IMG/VR virus record: IMGVR_UViG_3300031629_000048 | Span: 1 to 29,761 of that record | Length of the DNA stretch: 29,761 bases | Strand: one strand, 5' to 3' | Source: a virus | In this document: piece after piece, positions 13,645 through 28,448 of the stretch | Position numbering within the stretch: the stretch's first letter is position 1 | Layout: each line of letters begins with the position of its first letter | Program-made: the position numbers and the translations under genes | The notes under the pieces: model-generated | What the model was told of the DNA's origin: nothing | Databases searched by the model: none | Seen by the model: only the letters and a program-made list of their open reading frames with translations

Positions 13645-13673
13645 AGTATAGTCCAAAAGACCTCCCATGTCAA
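13645..13673 (-). promoter_or_regulatory. Sigma70-type promoter for the second tube/tail block
   Basis: TTGACA (13673-13668), 17 bp, TATACT (13650-13645), with AAAAATATTTC directly before the -35 box. Only the fifth base of the -10 box departs from consensus. Transcription should begin near 13638 and produce a ~50-nt leader containing the hairpin at 13606-13627. Confidence 0.82.
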
Positions 13674-17276: not shown

Positions 17277-18647
17277 TTAAGATGCAGCGTATTCGATACG
17301 TACTGAAGGTGCATCACCGGCAGCGCCAGCGAACAACTCAGTAAAACCGAGAGACTGTGAAGCAACAATAGCAGTACGCTGTGCGGCTGTTTCATAGTCT
17401 GTTTCGATTGCAACACCGCGCAGACGAGGCACAACATAGTTGTGTACGTTTACAGCGATAGCAGCAGTCTTGTTAGCAGCAATGCTGAACTGGTCACAGA
17501 TAACTACTGGAGAACCGTAAACAGAACCCATAGAACCTTGTACCTTAGCAGCCATATCTGATCCAACTTCACTAACGTCAGAGAAGCCAGGGTCATTGAT
17601 CAAGTTGTAATACTCACCAACACTAACGATATAAGCAACATCAGCAGGATTAACTCCATACTTGCCCATCTCACCACGTGCAGACATAAGCATTGCAGCA
17701 GTCAAAGGAACAGAGCCGTTAACAGCGATGTCAGTTACAGAAGTAGAATCAGCAGCTAGGAATGAACCTGAACCGTCAGTTCCAGCTCCGCCACATAGAC
17801 CTACGATGCTAGCGTTACCAATAGTGAATGCGCCGTCAATTGCACGAGCGTGAGCACGAGCCAAAGCAGACAAGATCATTGGAAGGATTGTAACTACTAC
17901 TTGCTCATCAGTATCATTACCGATGTAAGTACCAGAGATCAAACGCTTAGCAAGAGCAGTAACTTCACGAAGTTCAAACTCATTAGCAGCAACCTGCGTT
18001 CGGTTTTCTAAGATGCCATCACCGATTCCGCCAGTAGCGAAAGTAGCAACGTTAGTGTCATCCATCAAAGGAAGAACTGTAGCACCAGAATTGACTTGCA
18101 TTTCACGGAAGAGACCCGCAACTTTCTGCTGAAGACGTACTTCTTCTTCAAAAGTAGTTGCAACGATAGTATCTAAAGTGCCTGCGTTAGTGTCAAACTG
18201 AACACCAACTTTTTGCAGAAGGGCTTGTCCAAATGCAGTTCCGTTCATGCCTTTCTTGGTAATTTTACCAAGAACGTCAGCCATGAGGAAATCCTTACCG
18301 AACTTGGTAAGGTCTTGCTCACGCCCTGAGAAAGACTTCTTGCTGTTTTGCATAGCAGTGATCTCAGAAGACTTCTCTTCAAGGTCAGCTTTGTGCTCTG
18401 CTAGGATTTTAGCGATGTCAGCATCTTTAGCTTCCATCTTGGCTTCCATGTCAGCCATGAGTTGCTCAACGCCAGACTTAATACCAGTCTTAACGAGAAT
18501 GTTTTGGGCTTCAACAACAGAAGCTTCTTTATCAGCTTCGGCTTTCTCAGCTGCTTTTTGCTCGGCTTGCTTCATTGCGATTTTAGCAGCTGTATCTTCA
18601 GCTACCTTCTTTGCAAAAGCTTCCAAGTCGATGTTTTGATTTTCCAT
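17277..18647 (-). CDS. Major capsid protein from nested in-frame start
   Basis: Met208 of the protease-capsid frame (MENQNIDLEAFAKKVAED) has AGGAG at 18658-18654, six bases upstream of its ATG. That is as good as any ribosome site in the window and better than most. Initiation there gives 456 residues: delta-type scaffold plus capsid, about the size of an unprocessed HK97-like capsid precursor. The arrangement is analogous to lambda C/Nu3, where a nested start makes the abundant assembly protein and the long form the protease. Removal of the scaffold by the protease would leave a capsid of roughly 340-350 residues, starting somewhere near residue 310-320 of the long frame. Confidence 0.75.
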   Translation of the reverse strand: MENQNIDLEAFAKKVAEDTAAKIAMKQAEQKAAEKAEADKEASVVEAQNILVKTGIKSGVEQLMADMEAKMEAKDADIAKILAEHKADLEEKSSEITAMQNSKKSFSGREQDLTKFGKDFLMADVLGKITKKGMNGTAFGQALLQKVGVQFDTNAGTLDTIVATTFEEEVRLQQKVAGLFREMQVNSGATVLPLMDDTNVATFATGGIGDGILENRTQVAANEFELREVTALAKRLISGTYIGNDTDEQVVVTILPMILSALARAHARAIDGAFTIGNASIVGLCGGAGTDGSGSFLAADSTSVTDIAVNGSVPLTAAMLMSARGEMGKYGVNPADVAYIVSVGEYYNLINDPGFSDVSEVGSDMAAKVQGSMGSVYGSPVVICDQFSIAANKTAAIAVNVHNYVVPRLRGVAIETDYETAAQRTAIVASQSLGFTELFAGAAGDAPSVRIEYAAS

Positions 18648-19268
18648 TTTGATCTCCTGATCTGCGGAATCTAGTTCCGCGCTTTTCGGTGTGTTATCAC
18701 TAGCTACATTTGAAGTATTAACTTCGTCCTTAGCCAGAGACTGACCGGCTAGATCTACACGATTAGTGAAAGTTTTTTTGAAGGCTTCGTACTCATCAAC
18801 TGAGTCAAAAGACTTCGCGAGCGAAAAAGTAGCTTCTTGATTACAGGGTACGGAAACAACCGAAACCTCAAACAACTCAGCGTCCTTAATCATTAGTCCA
18901 TCGGTTTCTTTAATGTAATCAGCATCCTTGACTCTGAAACCAACAGAAAAGGCTCCAAGAACACCGTCTTTAACAAGCTCAGCTACATTGCCTGGGGCAC
19001 TTTTACTAATCCTGCATTCCAACTCTAAGCCACTAGGACCAGCTTTCATCCCTGTAGCGCGACCAATTGGTCTATCATAATCATGATTGAATAGAATAAT
19101 TGGGTTTTTCTCGAAATTCTTTAAGCCACCTTTCTGCCAAGCCTCTGCTGATATTGTATCACCTGCGCGATCAAAATCAGCGGTGCTCGCCATTCCACGA
19201 ATCAAAACAGAGCCGTCATCGGCCTGCTCAGACTTAAATGTGGAAGTGAGACTAAAAATCTTATCCAT
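17277..19268 (-). CDS. Prohead protease-major capsid fusion (S78 protease + HK97 capsid)
   Basis: This is one 663-residue frame. Residues 1-165 form an HK97-type S78 prohead protease: GMASTADFDRAGDTIS, the catalytic His at 62 in ILFNHDYDRPIGRA, the catalytic Ser at 108 in GVLGAFSVGFR, and LFEVSVVSVPCN near 132-143 with the likely third residue Glu134. A linker follows, then a charged coiled-coil scaffolding (delta) region at about 208-315 rich in Ala, Glu and Lys. The HK97-fold capsid follows, with motifs such as VATTFEEEVRLQQKVAGLF and VNSGATVLPLMDD. In most phages protease and capsid are separate genes. An internal ATG at 18647 with a strong ribosome site would also produce capsid alone. 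The fused product would be autoproteolytic and needed in small amounts. A terminator follows the stop. Confidence 0.9.
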   Translation of the reverse strand: MDKIFSLTSTFKSEQADDGSVLIRGMASTADFDRAGDTISAEAWQKGGLKNFEKNPIILFNHDYDRPIGRATGMKAGPSGLELECRISKSAPGNVAELVKDGVLGAFSVGFRVKDADYIKETDGLMIKDAELFEVSVVSVPCNQEATFSLAKSFDSVDEYEAFKKTFTNRVDLAGQSLAKDEVNTSNVASDNTPKSAELDSADQEIKMENQNIDLEAFAKKVAEDTAAKIAMKQAEQKAAEKAEADKEASVVEAQNILVKTGIKSGVEQLMADMEAKMEAKDADIAKILAEHKADLEEKSSEITAMQNSKKSFSGREQDLTKFGKDFLMADVLGKITKKGMNGTAFGQALLQKVGVQFDTNAGTLDTIVATTFEEEVRLQQKVAGLFREMQVNSGATVLPLMDDTNVATFATGGIGDGILENRTQVAANEFELREVTALAKRLISGTYIGNDTDEQVVVTILPMILSALARAHARAIDGAFTIGNASIVGLCGGAGTDGSGSFLAADSTSVTDIAVNGSVPLTAAMLMSARGEMGKYGVNPADVAYIVSVGEYYNLINDPGFSDVSEVGSDMAAKVQGSMGSVYGSPVVICDQFSIAANKTAAIAVNVHNYVVPRLRGVAIETDYETAAQRTAIVASQSLGFTELFAGAAGDAPSVRIEYAAS
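18654..18658 (-). promoter_or_regulatory. Shine-Dalgarno site for the nested capsid start
   Basis: AGGAG lies six bases before the ATG at 18647, inside the coding sequence of the protease-capsid frame. Its position between protease and scaffold parts makes a chance match unlikely. Confidence 0.75.
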
Positions 19269-21828: not shown

Positions 21829-21857
21829 ATTATATCTTGTCTAACGTCGCTTGTCAA
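21829..21857 (-). promoter_or_regulatory. Sigma70-type promoter for nuclease-portal-capsid block
   Basis: TTGACA (21857-21852), 17 bp, TATAAT (21834-21829), preceded by CAAAAATAGTG. It is a perfect consensus with the same upstream A-rich element as the other four promoters. Transcription should start near 21822, leaving a ~78-nt leader before the endonuclease ATG. Confidence 0.87.
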
Positions 21858-23335: not shown

Positions 23336-23920
23336 TTACGAAAGTTCGTGCGTACCGCGCTTTTTATGTCCGTTCCACGCTGCGAAGCCAGCCGCACGTA
23401 GCGACCAGAAGGCAAGATAGTTTAATACTTTAAATCCATTTACTTCAATACAAATGTCACGGAACAGTGTGTCCATATACTCTTGATCAACAGGTCCGAT
23501 AGTGCTACCATCCTTGTTCATAAGGGTAGCATATTTATATCCATAGTCATGGACTAAGCCGCCCATTAGGAGTACCCCTACAGGGGAAAGGAATGTTGCT
23601 AAGAACTTAGGTACTGAGGCTCCATCGAATTCAAAGCCATTTGGAATTATATAATCAACCCCGCCCAAGCTATAGTGAAAGTCTTCACAGATTTGCCACT
23701 TGCGAGTAGTTAAGAGCCACATCAGTATGCCCTTCCAAAAACCTTTACTTGCTGTCCCAATAGGAACAGGCTGCATCTTAGGCATAGAAGAGTACTTAAA
23801 GTCTACTCTAGTCTCTTGTTCTCCTTTATCCAGTTTATTTACAACGAAGCCAGCAATAACTAATATTCCAAGCACTGTCCATTGCCAAAAAGTTACAGCT
23901 AAATCAACTAACATTTCCAT
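23336..23920 (-). CDS. DUF1353-type membrane-anchored protein
   Basis: This 194-residue protein has an N-terminal transmembrane segment (about 5-28, AVTFWQWTVLGILVIAGFVV). The core carries the DUF1353 hallmarks: GVDYIIPNGFEFDGASVPKF near 110-128, followed by GGLVHDYGYKY with the conserved His-Asp. A C-terminal helix (YLAFWSLRAAGFAAWN) is hydrophobic. DUF1353 proteins are frequent in phages, often near lysis genes, but their activity is unknown to me. The His-Asp pair suggests metal binding. It follows a holin-like gene by two bases and precedes the tRNA-like element and terminase. A lysis-related role is inference. Confidence 0.8.
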   Translation of the reverse strand: MEMLVDLAVTFWQWTVLGILVIAGFVVNKLDKGEQETRVDFKYSSMPKMQPVPIGTASKGFWKGILMWLLTTRKWQICEDFHYSLGGVDYIIPNGFEFDGASVPKFLATFLSPVGVLLMGGLVHDYGYKYATLMNKDGSTIGPVDQEYMDTLFRDICIEVNGFKVLNYLAFWSLRAAGFAAWNGHKKRGTHELS

Positions 23921-23921
23921 C

Positions 23922-24227
23922 TTATTTTTTTCCTATCGCTTCTTTAGCATAGAACGCTGCTACGATAGCGGCTACGGATACGAAGTATGTAGGTGCCATA
24001 TCACCTAAAATTTTCGCTGCATTAGACAGCCCTACAAGTTCCGCTATTACTACTGCGAAGGGGTAAAGAAGCATCCCTCCTAGTGCGAACCACGCCATGT
24101 TCCTTTGCGCGTCTCGCATTGCATCCTGGTCTTCAAGCTCTTTGCGTCTTGCTTCAAGATACATTTTGTGTTCTTCATCAGATATTTTGCCATCACCATT
24201 AGTATCAGCGGGATGTAAATCTGTCAT
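23922..24227 (-). CDS. EF-hand membrane protein, holin-like
   Basis: This 101-residue protein has a perfect EF-hand calcium loop near the N-terminus (DTNGDGKISDEE, residues 8-19), a charged helix (HKMYLEARRKELEDQDAMRD), then two hydrophobic segments (MAWFALGGMLLYPFAVVIAE and YFVSVAAIVAAFYA) and a lysine tail. Size and two membrane segments resemble class II holins, and it lies between an XhlA-like gene and the DUF1353 gene. The calcium loop could tie membrane activity to calcium. The ATG overlaps the previous stop (ATGA). Holin function is not shown by the sequence; a structural or signalling membrane protein is possible. Confidence 0.65.
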   Translation of the reverse strand: MTDLHPADTNGDGKISDEEHKMYLEARRKELEDQDAMRDAQRNMAWFALGGMLLYPFAVVIAELVGLSNAAKILGDMAPTYFVSVAAIVAAFYAKEAIGKK

Positions 24228-25149: not shown

Positions 25150-25178
25150 ATTATACTCAAAGTGAGGTTCGTTGTCAA
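25150..25178 (-). promoter_or_regulatory. Sigma70-type promoter for the packaging/lysis block
   Basis: TTGACA (25178-25173), 17 bp, TATAAT (25155-25150), preceded by CAAAAATAAATC. It is a perfect consensus. The expected start of transcription (about seven bases past the -10 box) coincides with the A of the small terminase ATG at 25142. Confidence 0.9.
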
Positions 25179-25197: not shown

Positions 25198-25722
25198 TTA
25201 GTCCGCAAGCGGGTTATCAAGTGCTCTTTGTAATTTGTCTGAGATACGTTTTTCAAGTTCATCCATGTCTCTAGTGACCTTAGTTTGCAAGTCTGAGATT
25301 CGTGTATCGTTAGACTCACGCAGTCTGCTAGCTTTAGTATCGTAATCAGTTTGTAGAGCATCACGTTTAGCCTCAAACCGCTCTTCTGCATTCTGAATGG
25401 TATTGCGAATACGCTCTTCAGATTCTCTAACCTTGTCTTCGACACGATCAGCTTGTTTCTCTATTCCTAGTATGTCGTCTCGTAAGCCACCTTTGATATC
25501 GCGGGTGTACTCTATTGCAGCATCTAGTTTGCTTTCGATAATTTTATTACGTTCTTCTATCTTAGCTGTATCTATGTTAGACACGACTTCAGCCATATCT
25601 GTGTAATCCTTGTAGAACTCAAAACCAGCCCATGTGGCACCACCAAGTGTGGATAGCGCGGTAAGCATTATCATCATCTTACCGCCTTTAAAGGTCATCC
25701 CTCCAAACTCAACTTCTGCCAT
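25198..25722 (-). CDS. Membrane-anchored coiled-coil protein
   Basis: This 174-residue protein has a short N-terminal region (MAEVEFGGMTFKGG), a membrane segment around 15-38 (MMIMLTALSTLGGATWAGFE), and then about 130 residues of almost unbroken charged heptads (VEDKVRESEERIRNTIQNAE and similar), ending RALDNPLAD. It should sit in the inner membrane with a long coiled-coil rod. It is the last gene of the exported/membrane cassette begun at 28395, and a promoter follows its stop. GGGG lies upstream of its ATG. A spanin-like span across the periplasm or an entry/exclusion role are both possible; I see no proof of either. Confidence 0.7.
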   Translation of the reverse strand: MAEVEFGGMTFKGGKMMIMLTALSTLGGATWAGFEFYKDYTDMAEVVSNIDTAKIEERNKIIESKLDAAIEYTRDIKGGLRDDILGIEKQADRVEDKVRESEERIRNTIQNAEERFEAKRDALQTDYDTKASRLRESNDTRISDLQTKVTRDMDELEKRISDKLQRALDNPLAD

Positions 25723-25736
25723 ATATCCCCTTTTTC

Positions 25737-26162
25737 TTAGTTCTCAAACGCTAAGCGTTTTAAATTCTCTACCTCTTGTGTTAGTTTTTGTACCTCTAGT
25801 CGTTTTTTAGTTAGTTCTAGCTGATAAAGTGTGTTACAATTTAGTCTTTCTTTTGGTGCCCCTATGGGTATTGTTATCTTAGCGTAAACACCTATATCTC
25901 GCATATTGGGGGTGTTGTACGAGTTAAAAGAAGTTGCTTCCTGATTATGAGGACTACTGCCATCTTCTTTACTAAGCAGTCCCACGACCCCGAACTCCAC
26001 ATTAGTGGACGCTCCTATAGCCATCTGGCAGTCTAGTTGTCCCGCCCTAAACTTATCTGATTGATAGCTTTGAGAAGAGTTAGGGATAGCTAGGTTCAAA
26101 GAATTAGACTGTCCCCAAGACTGGTAGCTGGTAAGTAGTAGTAGTACTATTAAATATTTCAA
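25737..26162 (-). CDS. Secreted protein with C-terminal coiled coil
   Basis: This 141-residue protein has a strong signal peptide (MKYLIVLLLLTSYQSWGQS, likely cleaved after WG or GQ). The mature part has NLAIPNSSQSYQSDKFRAGQ, then LDCQMAIGASTNVEFGVVG. It contains two cysteines that could pair (in LDCQ and LNCN), a short beta region (DIGVYAKITIPIG), and a C-terminal coiled coil (TLYQLELTKKRLEVQKLTQE). The start is TTG at 26162, as no ATG is present in a suitable place and the signal sequence begins there. The gap to the preceding gene is 6 bp. Periplasmic location is predicted; function unknown. Confidence 0.7.
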   Translation of the reverse strand: MKYLIVLLLLTSYQSWGQSNSLNLAIPNSSQSYQSDKFRAGQLDCQMAIGASTNVEFGVVGLLSKEDGSSPHNQEATSFNSYNTPNMRDIGVYAKITIPIGAPKERLNCNTLYQLELTKKRLEVQKLTQEVENLKRLAFEN

Positions 26163-26168
26163 TATAAG

Positions 26169-26552
26169 TCACTTTAGTTTTGAACAAATTCTTGAAGACA
26201 CTTGGCTGGCCTGAACCCCTCCTGCTAGTATCTTAGAACGTGAACAGATATATCTAGCAAGGCCTACGTCTTTCTCGCGTAGGTAAATGGGAATAAATTT
26301 CCGGTCTAGGTAAGGTACATACATAACATTTGCGATACCTGCTCCGGCAAATGGAAGGCTATTCCATTCCTCATCAAATACTTTTATTTCGTAATAGCTT
26401 ATCTCTTCTCTACTATTAAACAGTAACATAGTAGTTTGTACTATGCCTGGTGAGTAAGAGCTCTCCCACTCAGGATAGGTAGGAGTGAACTGATGGCTAC
26501 TTGCGTAACCACTCAGTCCTAGTAGCATAGTAAATATTAAAGTGCGATGCAC
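26169..26552 (-). CDS. Secreted beta-sandwich protein, pilus-chaperone-like
   Basis: This 127-residue protein has a signal peptide (MHRTLIFTMLLGLSGYASS). The mature part reads as a beta-rich domain: SPGIVQTTMLLFNSREEISY then YEIKVFDEEWNSLPF, and later YLDRKFIPIYLREKDVGLA. Strands with 'N-R', 'V-D--W' and 'P-YLR' recall the N-terminal domain of PapD-type periplasmic pilus chaperones. It overlaps by 16 bases the gene of the pilin-like secreted protein upstream, as chaperone-subunit pairs often do. Two cysteines near the C-terminus (YICSRSK, RICSKLK) may form a disulphide. The chaperone reading is an inference from pattern and context. Confidence 0.65.
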   Translation of the reverse strand: MHRTLIFTMLLGLSGYASSHQFTPTYPEWESSYSPGIVQTTMLLFNSREEISYYEIKVFDEEWNSLPFAGAGIANVMYVPYLDRKFIPIYLREKDVGLARYICSRSKILAGGVQASQVSSRICSKLK

Positions 26553-27037
26553 TCTGCTTCCACGACTGCATTATAGTTGCCAGAAGGAAAAGACTTGTCA
26601 TAGCCATATACAGCTGTAGACTCAGCTTTAAACCACGTTGAGCCAGCTATAGTTAAATCAAACTCTGAGTAGTTGTTGTACACAACTTTATCTGTATCAT
26701 AAGCAGACATCAACGCATCACTAACTTCGCCAACGCTAGTTGTTCCAGTCCAGGCAACAACATCGTTCAATGAAGGGCTGGCTGAGAAGTCGTTAGGTGT
26801 TGCTATTACTGCTTTGTAATAGTTAGCACTTACCACATCAAAACGAATAATGGGAACAACTCCACCGTCTGCTGGAAGCGTACTAAGCTTGCTTGGAGTA
26901 GGGTTTCCATATACTCCGTTGGTTTCAGTAGTAATCACACATTTGGATTCTACGTTACCGCTAATTGGTACGTTTTCGGCAGATGCCGGTATTACGATCA
27001 TTGCTGCACTAAGTGCAAGTAGAGTTTTATTAAACAT
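26537..27037 (-). CDS. Secreted pilin/spore-coat-U-like protein
   Basis: This 166-residue protein has a clear signal peptide with AxA cleavage site (MFNKTLLALSAAMIVIPASA, then EN). The mature protein starts ISGNVESKCVITTETNGVYG and ends FPSGNYNAVVEAECIAL. The first and last cysteines fit a disulphide, and the final 'P-G-Y---V---C' strand resembles pilin or SCPU (spore coat U) subunits of chaperone-usher systems. In between are strand-rich segments (YYKAVIATPNDFSASP, EFDLTIAGSTWFKAESTAVY). It is followed, with a 16-base overlap, by the chaperone-like gene. Virion pilus mimicry, adhesion or blocking of surface structures are possible; none is proven. Confidence 0.65.
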   Translation of the reverse strand: MFNKTLLALSAAMIVIPASAENVPISGNVESKCVITTETNGVYGNPTPSKLSTLPADGGVVPIIRFDVVSANYYKAVIATPNDFSASPSLNDVVAWTGTTSVGEVSDALMSAYDTDKVVYNNYSEFDLTIAGSTWFKAESTAVYGYDKSFPSGNYNAVVEAECIAL

Positions 27038-27053
27038 AAGTTTAGTCCTTCAT

Positions 27054-27926
27054 TTAAGGCTTTGAGACTAGGTTATTAAATTGGGAACTTACCATTTTCT
27101 CGTGTAGTAACTGTTGGGCAAAGCTAACGCGCTTTGCAGTATTATTATCAGGTAACTGCGTATCACCATAAGTAAGAGTCTCTTTATACACGCCTCCTGG
27201 CATCGTAGTGTAATAGGCTCCAATATAGTTATTCATTGCTAGCAGTAACTGGGCTTGGGCAAGTGCTTGAGCGGCTAGTAAGCTAGTATTTATGCTACCT
27301 AGCAGTACTTCAAGTCTTTCTTTTTTCTTGCCATCTTTCTTCTTCAACCGCTGTCTTTCTTCTTCATCTTCGTCGTCTAGGGCTGCTTTCTTTTCTAGCT
27401 CTAATCTAATGAACTCATCTTGCAAAGGGTCTACTATTTCTATTGCTGGTAAAGCCACAACAGGAGCTACATACTCTGCACAACTTGGATCTACTTGAGG
27501 GTCAACGCACAAGTCATATTGATAACTATAGATAACCGTAGCATCTGTTACGTCACCAGTACCTGTCCAGGAGATCGAACCATCTCCCCATGCCTCTAGT
27601 GGGATACTGCCTACAGGTATTACTCTGTTTATGCTATTCCCAGGAAGTCCTGACCAATCGTCAACACTTCTAAATATATATCCGTCACCTAGTGCATTTT
27701 CATTCTGTACACTAACTAACATATCGTCTTCTGTAGCTTTAACAGTGGTGTAGCGATATACTACACCATTAACAGTTAAACCAGCATACTCTGGAAGTAT
27801 GTTGGTCATTACCCAGTTATAACCTGCCGAAGCTGCGTTTGTGCTTTGCTCGAAGGTTATCTCAGAGTAAGAGCAGGAGGAGTAAGCTAGCAACACCGGC
27901 ACCACCAAGCATAGTCTTCTTACCAT
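27054..27926 (-). CDS. Large secreted protein of the exported cassette
   Basis: This 290-residue protein begins with a signal peptide (MVRRLCLVVPVLLAYSSCSYS). The mature N-terminal half is beta-rich (NAASAGYNWVMTNILPEYAG, VNGVVYRYTTVKATEDDMLV, then GYIFRSVDDWSGLPGNSINR), with four cysteines near 137-149 region (DLCVDPQVDPSCAEY shows two). A charged helix with a strongly basic/acidic run (DDEDEEERQRLKKKDGKKKE) follows, and then an Ala/Leu-rich helix (LLAAQALAQAQLLLAM). Its coding sequence overlaps the previous gene by 65 bases in another frame, with GGGAG before the ATG. There is no recognisable enzyme motif. It probably acts in the periplasm or at the cell surface. Confidence 0.7.
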   Translation of the reverse strand: MVRRLCLVVPVLLAYSSCSYSEITFEQSTNAASAGYNWVMTNILPEYAGLTVNGVVYRYTTVKATEDDMLVSVQNENALGDGYIFRSVDDWSGLPGNSINRVIPVGSIPLEAWGDGSISWTGTGDVTDATVIYSYQYDLCVDPQVDPSCAEYVAPVVALPAIEIVDPLQDEFIRLELEKKAALDDEDEEERQRLKKKDGKKKERLEVLLGSINTSLLAAQALAQAQLLLAMNNYIGAYYTTMPGGVYKETLTYGDTQLPDNNTAKRVSFAQQLLHEKMVSSQFNNLVSKP

Positions 27927-28395
27927 CTGTCATCTCCCTTTCTACTAGTTCAATCTCTACGGGTTGTTTATCCCCGTTGGTTATCCAAGCAGCTTTTGCT
28001 TCGGCCCCTATCATACCGTCGAAAGGACAAGGTGTTCCAGCCATCATCATTGCATCAAAGACTCTTTGGTCTTGACACATAACCGATACAGCCGCTACCT
28101 TCATGCCCATGTCGAACAAGGTCTTAGCATTCTTTAACTTTTCACAGTTCATATCTCGAACAGTACTTCCTGCTGAGATACCAAGTATTTGTGTCTGTAC
28201 TGCACCCGCTATACCAACTGTACACAAGTCTGAATTAGATATGTTCATAGTTGGTGTAATCGCTGAAGGAGGTGGAGATTTCAACGTGGTTGTGTTTCTG
28301 CTACTTGTATCAACTGTGCTTTCTGTTACAATGGGATCTGTTTGCGCAACTGCAACTGATGAAACCATTAAAAGCATAAATAATAAGTTTTTCAT
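27862..28395 (-). CDS. Secreted, C-terminally membrane-anchored protein
   Basis: This 177-residue protein is the first gene after the promoter at 28420-28448, with GAGGT before the ATG. It has a signal peptide (MKNLLFMLLMVSSVAVAQ), a Thr/Ser/Pro-rich linker (SPPPSAITPTMNISNS), and a compact domain with Cys residues (DLCTVGIAGAVQTQILGISA, RDMNCEKLKNAKTLFDMGMK, AVSVMCQDQRVF, GTPCPFDGMIG). A C-terminal hydrophobic segment (GGAGVASLLLLLLL) could anchor it in the inner membrane. Four conserved-looking cysteines suggest disulphides after export. I know of similar proteins in other aquatic phages by recollection only; function unknown. Confidence 0.72.
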   Translation of the reverse strand: MKNLLFMLLMVSSVAVAQTDPIVTESTVDTSSRNTTTLKSPPPSAITPTMNISNSDLCTVGIAGAVQTQILGISAGSTVRDMNCEKLKNAKTLFDMGMKVAAVSVMCQDQRVFDAMMMAGTPCPFDGMIGAEAKAAWITNGDKQPVEIELVEREMTDGKKTMLGGAGVASLLLLLLL

Positions 28396-28419
28396 TTGAG
28401 TACCTCTTTTATTGCTCCA

Positions 28420-28448
28420 ATTATACGGGACTTTGATAGTTTTGTCAA
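28420..28448 (-). promoter_or_regulatory. Sigma70-type promoter for the exported cassette
   Basis: TTGACA (28448-28443), 17 bp, TATAAT (28425-28420), preceded by GAAAAATAACTC. It is a perfect consensus. Transcription should start near 28413, about 18 bases before the ATG at 28395. It separates the exported cassette from the genes at 28491-29761. Confidence 0.88.

Follow-up and report, generated by a model that had tools for sequence, protein, structure and literature searches.

A conserved six-gene cassette of exported proteins in marine phages, with predicted pilin-like and chaperone-like members

What does a run of six adjacent genes, each encoding a protein with an export signal or a membrane anchor, do among the structural genes of a phage? 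The question is raised by IMG/VR virus record IMGVR_UViG_3300031629_000048, a stretch of 29,761 bases (here called the window, meaning all of it) that is read on the minus strand and carries there tail genes, capsid, portal and terminase, with the six genes of the cassette (g1 to g6, Table 1) lying upstream of the terminase. An initial annotation had proposed a block of six exported or membrane proteins under one promoter, among them a pilin-like and a chaperone-like protein. All six open reading frames are present (28395-25198, minus strand), and each does bear an export signal, g1 to g5 having signal-peptide-like N-termini with -3/-1 sites by sequence inspection and g6 an N-terminal membrane segment. 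As proposed, the block starts at a perfect sigma-70 promoter and ends before the next one, both sites matching the consensus at 12/12 positions.

The six-gene block is a real module. An IMG/VR scan anchored on g1 gave at least 594 confirmed relatives, and gene maps of the best 80 of these loci showed the six genes adjacent and in constant order wherever the contig was long enough. Loci with room for the whole set held all six genes in 64/64 cases when g1 was the anchor and, in independent IMG/VR scans, in 58/58 (g3) and 53/54 (g4); these counts come from the nearest relatives of each anchor and are valid for the close family, not for each distant homologue. Since the six genes are conserved in fixed order, chance is excluded. 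The 16-base overlap between g3 and g4, which the initial annotation had likened to usher-pathway gene pairs, is the commonest arrangement among the relatives (90 loci) and recurs in distant Vibrio phages. Co-occurrence, also predicted, is strict among the relatives of the window, but farther off the set splits into g1/g6 and g3-g4-g5, as described below.

Sites with at most one mismatch to TTGACA-N17-TATAAT number five in the window against 0.30 expected, and of 77 relatives 38 have a promoter-like site ahead of g1 where 8.6 would be expected. Four perfect promoters, all on the minus strand, punctuate the structural region (the two of Table 1 together with 1405-1433 and 21829-21857), where an 11/12 match is also found at 13645-13673 (-).

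Two of the six products resemble, in their predicted structures, the two partners of the chaperone-usher pathway. The AlphaFold2 model of g3 (monomer, alignment of 36 sequences, predicted local distance difference test (pLDDT) 90.7) had as its best match among solved structures in Foldseek the CFA/I pilin CfaB (E 3.5e-4), with FimF, the PapG pilin domain, CsuA/B, Caf1 and FimG within the top 30 and CS17 also following; chaperone-usher pilins rank best, in agreement with the pilin fold suggested earlier, and MSCRAMM adhesins and some other beta-sandwiches are matched as well. Residues 1-32 of the model are without any strand. With 17 pilins and five chaperones of E. coli K-12 as a yardstick, Gly at position -14 from the C-terminus was seen in 36/36 g3 sequences, 5/5 Vibrio relatives and 16/17 K-12 pilins, and the even C-terminal positions from -2 to -12 are hydrophobic at frequencies of 0.95, 0.93 and 0.95, respectively, with Ala in g3 in place of the penultimate aromatic residue of pilins. 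This C-terminal signature is absent from g2, g4, g5 and g6; Gly at -14 in g1 (20/26 sequences) was set aside as a chance effect of a Gly-rich tail. Near the other end of the protein, the motif phi-x-phi-x-G-x-phi...C is present in 36/36 g3 sequences and in 13 of the 17 K-12 pilins, and when g3 was compared with the K-12 pilin profile by hhalign, NVPISGNVESK-C paired with TITVNGKVVAKPC of FimG (E 6e-5). In classical pili these are the motifs through which subunits exchange donor strands and contact the chaperone.

The model of g4 (monomer, 40 sequences, pLDDT 88.7) shows a PapD-type N-domain, as the chaperone fold proposed for it would have it: among 350,542 chains, Foldseek ranked PapD, FaeE, FaeE and PapD (PapD-PapK) in the first four places, with FimC at rank 10 and a long tail of antibody domains below. 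The K-12 chaperones lend g4 no sequence support, a Vibrio relative aligning colinearly with them over 128 columns at E 0.004, its end CAK[LV]RLYWP standing opposite SRIKLYYRP.

On balance, and with a confidence only slightly above even, we favor the reading that g3 and g4 pair by strand donation without an usher, as part of an assembly that is made in the infected cell and spans its envelope. Several observations weigh against it. The N-terminal pattern is kept in 1/5 Vibrio relatives, no Pfam pilin or chaperone model matches g3 or g4, and the Foldseek template modeling (TM) scores stay in a moderate range, 0.33-0.50 for the pilins matched by g3 and, by query length, 0.53-0.60 for the chaperones matched by g4, with other immunoglobulin (Ig)-like and adhesin domains ranking closely behind. 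Moreover, g4 has no second Ig-like domain and equals only the first domain of classical chaperones; its profile was unmatched against the K-12 chaperones (E 0.09), and that of the Vibrio relative reached only E 0.004. An usher (PF00577) was present in 0/40 cassette contigs, which are fragments, a host usher being possible. The pilin/chaperone interpretation stands as far as the predicted folds of both proteins and the signatures of g3 are concerned, while the usher and the two-domain chaperone of that pathway were not found. Set beside chaperone-usher pili, the cassette has in common the folds (CfaB and the FimF, FimG and PapG pilin domains for g3; PapD, FaeE and FimC for g4), the Gly at -14 with its alternating C-terminal hydrophobics, an N-terminal donor-like segment and the adjacency of subunit and chaperone genes; it differs in the usher not found, the one-domain chaperone and the absence of a Pfam match, and in being phage-encoded with four further exported genes.

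Table 1. Position of the cassette genes, of the g3 motifs, of the flanking promoters and of related rows in other phages (window coordinates unless a contig is named)
Feature	Position	Strand	Description
g1	27862..28395	-	exported, 177 amino acids (aa), four invariant Cys, hydrophobic C-terminal tail; most conserved gene of the module
g2	27054..27926	-	exported, 290 aa; beta-rich towards the N-terminus, helical at the C-terminus, with a charged linker; 65-base overlap with g1
g3	26537..27037	-	exported pilin-like protein, 166 aa
g3 N-terminal extension ENVPISGNVESK, residues 21-32	26942..26977	-	strandless in monomer model; putative donor strand
g3 C-terminal strand G-x-Y-x-A-x-V-x-A-x-C-x-A-x, residues 153-166	26540..26581	-	Gly at -14; putative chaperone-contact motif
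g4	26169..26552	-	exported single-domain PapD-like protein, 127 aa; 16-base overlap with g3
g5	25737..26162	-	exported, 141 aa, two invariant Cys, C-terminal coiled coil
g6	25198..25722	-	174 aa, N-terminal membrane anchor and periplasmic coiled coil, conserved C-terminus NPLA
Sigma-70 promoter TTGACA-N17-TATAAT, 12/12	28420-28448	-	upstream of g1
Sigma-70 promoter TTGACA-N17-TATAAT, 12/12	25150-25178	-	starts next unit (terminase small subunit)
g4-like/g5-like/third-gene rows	L258:3134-4357, L259:3131-4428, L261:3113-4385, L262:3062-4334		enterobacterial and Stenotrophomonas phages

Pfam and PHROGs assigned a function to none of the six proteins, and profile searches of Protein Data Bank sequences with g1 to g5 gave no matches. 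Conserved Cys residues occur in even number in g1 (4), g3 (2), g4 (2) and g5 (2), which fits oxidised periplasmic proteins, and g6 has none. No conserved lipobox Cys was detected in g1 to g5, so the cassette holds no lipoprotein partner. The single N-terminal membrane segment of g6 is followed by a highly charged, heptad-patterned helix (46% D/E/K/R in residues 45-165); matches of this protein to apolipoproteins and phasins were rejected as coiled-coil noise.

Three other genes of the window deserve a mention. Between terminase and cassette, 23336-23920 (-) encodes a DUF1353 protein whose family, PHROG 1158, bears the label tail assembly chaperone. A holin-like protein of 101 aa, encoded at 23922-24227 (-), combines an EF-hand-like loop with two membrane segments and a basic tail; it has counterparts in Methylophilales phage Melnitz (72% identity), HTVC008M (68%) and CRP-207 (63%) and is often close to the cassette in relatives. 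Farther off, a single open reading frame of 663 aa at 17277-19268 (-) seems, judging by its sequence, to join a prohead protease to an HK97-type major capsid protein.

The cassette is found in phages of very different kinds. Among 27 long cassette contigs, eight have a gp23 capsid gene of the T4 type; seven others, which are siphovirus-like, share the terminase of the window at 69-88% identity. The simplest reading is that the intact cassette was transferred between unrelated phages, because g1 of the T4-type contigs is 65-72% identical to that of the window (L020, L028, L074; 72% in contig G002, L074) while the terminases of T4-type and siphovirus-like cassette contigs are only 23-28% identical. 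A terminase neighborhood like that of the window was seen in 22 of the 38 loci with enough flank, the remainder being without it. Since the cassette is kept intact on moving between phage families, selection on it must be strong.

Beyond the close family the set falls into two submodules: pelagi- and roseophages have g1 with g6, and T5-like Vibrio phages have g3-g4-g5, with lysis genes alongside. Of the first, g1 is present in the isolated pelagiphages HTVC115P, 202P, 023P, 033P, Mosig and Baldr and in the roseophages CRP-207 and CRP-810, whose g1 family is related to that of the window by profile (E 1.8e-53) with all four Cys invariant. The order there is g1, one larger exported protein and then a membrane-anchored coiled coil; g3, g4 and g5 were undetected in these modules. 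A g6 homologue ends the g1 module in HTVC115P, CRP-207, CRP-810, the bacterial-genome contigs L097, L099 and L103, and others, and g6 was found at all g1 loci with room in the genome_contigs collection. Two further equivalences were not supported: the short coiled coils of the HTVC023P type have only their architecture and the NPLA at the C-terminus in common with g6, and g2 matched the large pelagiphage exported protein as a family at E 0.09 (single members at 1e-3 to 1e-5). The g6-type coiled coils of CRP-207 (L089:3292-3873) and CRP-810 (L090:7297-7719) are labelled lysozyme in GenBank, a label that looks wrong because the sequence consists of a membrane segment and a coiled coil. Downstream of the g1 module of HTVC115P, gp46 (L083:12396-12845) is annotated as a toxin-activating lysine acyltransferase.

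The second submodule was reached through g5, which has relatives in 204 isolated phages, since tblastn with g3 of the window or of a divergent member gave no match in the phage collection. Homologues of g3 and g4 (hhalign against the window, g3 1e-9 and g4 2e-9) lie ahead of g5 in pVp-1, Ceto, 51E28.1, D80 and D71, which are Vibrio phages, and this triad, in T5-like and other Vibrio phages, has the identical 16-base g3/g4 overlap. In pVp-1 the three genes are gp77-79 (PHROG 25895, 25455 and 37374), in the same order as in the cassette, with g3 matching PHROG 25895 (gp77) and g5 matching PHROG 37374 (gp79; E 1e-4); they differ from it in that no g1, g2 or g6 occurs in the stretch examined and that holin and endolysin adjoin. 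More distantly, phages of Erwinia, Klebsiella, Stenotrophomonas and Raoultella carry g5 (4e-13) beside a weaker relative of g4 (9e-6). Large enterobacterial and Stenotrophomonas phages were seen to have consecutively a g4-like gene (A-H-x-F-x-P start), a g5-like gene and a third exported beta-rich gene (Table 1), which may represent another pilin-like family. The jumbo-phage gene A11 beside g5 was considered as a g3 homologue and not supported (hhalign E 0.008, Gly at -15).

How might such a set work? The cassette would be a self-contained, horizontally moving module whose six products are exported and come together in the cell envelope during infection. As fold and motifs suggest, g3 would be a pilin-like subunit with an incomplete Ig-type fold plus an N-terminal donor segment, and g4 a one-domain PapD-type chaperone, probably completing or holding g3 by its last strand; the N-terminal segment of g3 would then replace that strand, by donor-strand exchange, in another g3 or in a cassette partner. 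From co-occurrence and topology, g6 may tie the assembly to the inner membrane through its periplasmic coiled coil, with g1, g2 and g5 as partners in the periplasm or at the surface that are stabilised by disulfides. A long pilus is not expected in the absence of an encoded usher; the product is more probably a short complex that spans the periplasm or is exposed at the surface.

The cassette might be a superinfection-exclusion or surface-modifying device that acts on the infected cell, its products masking or altering the receptors or outer membrane there, an explanation that we hold possible, if on the unlikely side. Every product is exported, and the cassette comes after tail-fibre or fibre-assembly genes in the window and in relatives (u74 upstream in 12/38 loci; HTVC115P; pVp-1); it has moved between unrelated phages much as accessory modules do. 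Its perfect host sigma-70 promoter could be read without phage factors, but such promoters serve all late units of this phage, and 60-70% identity across phages expected to use different receptors disfavors a receptor-specific blocker.

We regard as rather unlikely that the cassette is a spanin-like release system, in which g6, anchored in the inner membrane, is connected by the exported partners to the outer membrane and the envelope is thereby disrupted after endolysis. By sequence-based topology and heptad analysis, g6 has the size and plan of an i-spanin (N-terminal membrane segment, periplasmic coiled coil) as in the two-component spanins Rz/Rz1 and T4 PseT.3/PseT.2, and 91 of the 677 phages in a spanin survey have no recognisable spanin (PMC6139136). 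Lysis genes also turn up nearby: the g1 module of HTVC023P and HTVC033P adjoins an endolysin (M15 peptidase or amidase), a holin-like gene stands directly upstream in Mosig and S28-C10, and a small lipoprotein gene comes after the triad of pVp-1, Ceto and D80, with holin and/or endolysin next. A gene transfer agent (GTA)-type holin lies ~1.4 kb after g4 in one of the two contigs that carry such a holin. The cassette itself, however, has six genes where spanins require one or two small ones, includes no outer-membrane lipoprotein, and contains a chaperoned pilin-like subunit for which release would not account. In long contigs a SleB-type hydrolase is at most ~5 kb away in 2/12 and ~9-33 kb away in the others; lysis is thus kept as a rival and not as the lead.

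The likeness of g3 and g4 to pilins and chaperones could also be convergent Ig-like folding of unrelated small beta-sandwich proteins of an envelope module, as the moderate TM-scores, the many Ig-like domains at lower ranks and the lack of any Pfam or K-12 chaperone profile match would allow. We consider this doubtful, as g3 and g4 are neighbors coupled in translation whose separate searches each put at the top one of the two partner families of a single pathway, and both terminal pilin signatures occur in 36/36 g3 sequences in register with the K-12 pilins. Finally, g3 and g4 could be decoys that enter or jam the chaperone-usher pathway of the host and block its pili, as the motifs g3 shares with real pilins and the lack of a phage usher in 40 contigs might suggest, a very improbable role given how different the hosts of the relatives are (Vibrio and, by g5, enterobacteria and Stenotrophomonas) and how needless five partner genes in fixed order would then be.

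With the usher-less donor-strand pair as the preferred reading, we would rank its possible roles as, first, an altered cell surface (superinfection exclusion or a fibre), second, a spanin-like crossing of the outer membrane by virions at release and, third, interference with host pili; a fold of surface type and the location behind tail-fibre genes speak for an effect on the envelope or surface of the infected cell. No published description of the cassette was found among open-licence papers. By analogy, the nearest concept appears to be the curli (type VIII secretion) module of pelagiphages, which has been passed between myo- and podoviruses and whose role in the infected cell is unknown (PMC9599517). 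Like the cassette, it is a multigene exported module of marine phages transferred between families (PMC9599517); it differs in consisting of CsgG, CsgF and CsgA/B and forming amyloid, and no homologue of these proteins was identified in the cassette.

Hundreds of marine phage contigs, T4-type and siphovirus-like ones included, devote ~3 kb to this cassette. In the envelope of the cells they infect, the many marine phages that carry it are probably building a structure so far unrecognised, because the exported set includes pilus-subunit-like and helper-like proteins without the usual export pore. Donor-strand assembly is, to our knowledge, known only from cellular pili and capsular antigens. 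We tentatively suggest, short of even confidence, that unrelated lineages of tailed phages share an usher-less donor-strand system, made up of a mini-chaperone, a pilin-like subunit, a membrane anchor and exported partners, which forms a novel envelope structure. The T5-like Vibrio phages pVp-1 and Ceto are cultured systems that carry the triad. If g3 and g4 act as their folds and motifs suggest, bacterial viruses would also use donor-strand assembly, in a version that is smaller, usher-less and works with half a chaperone.

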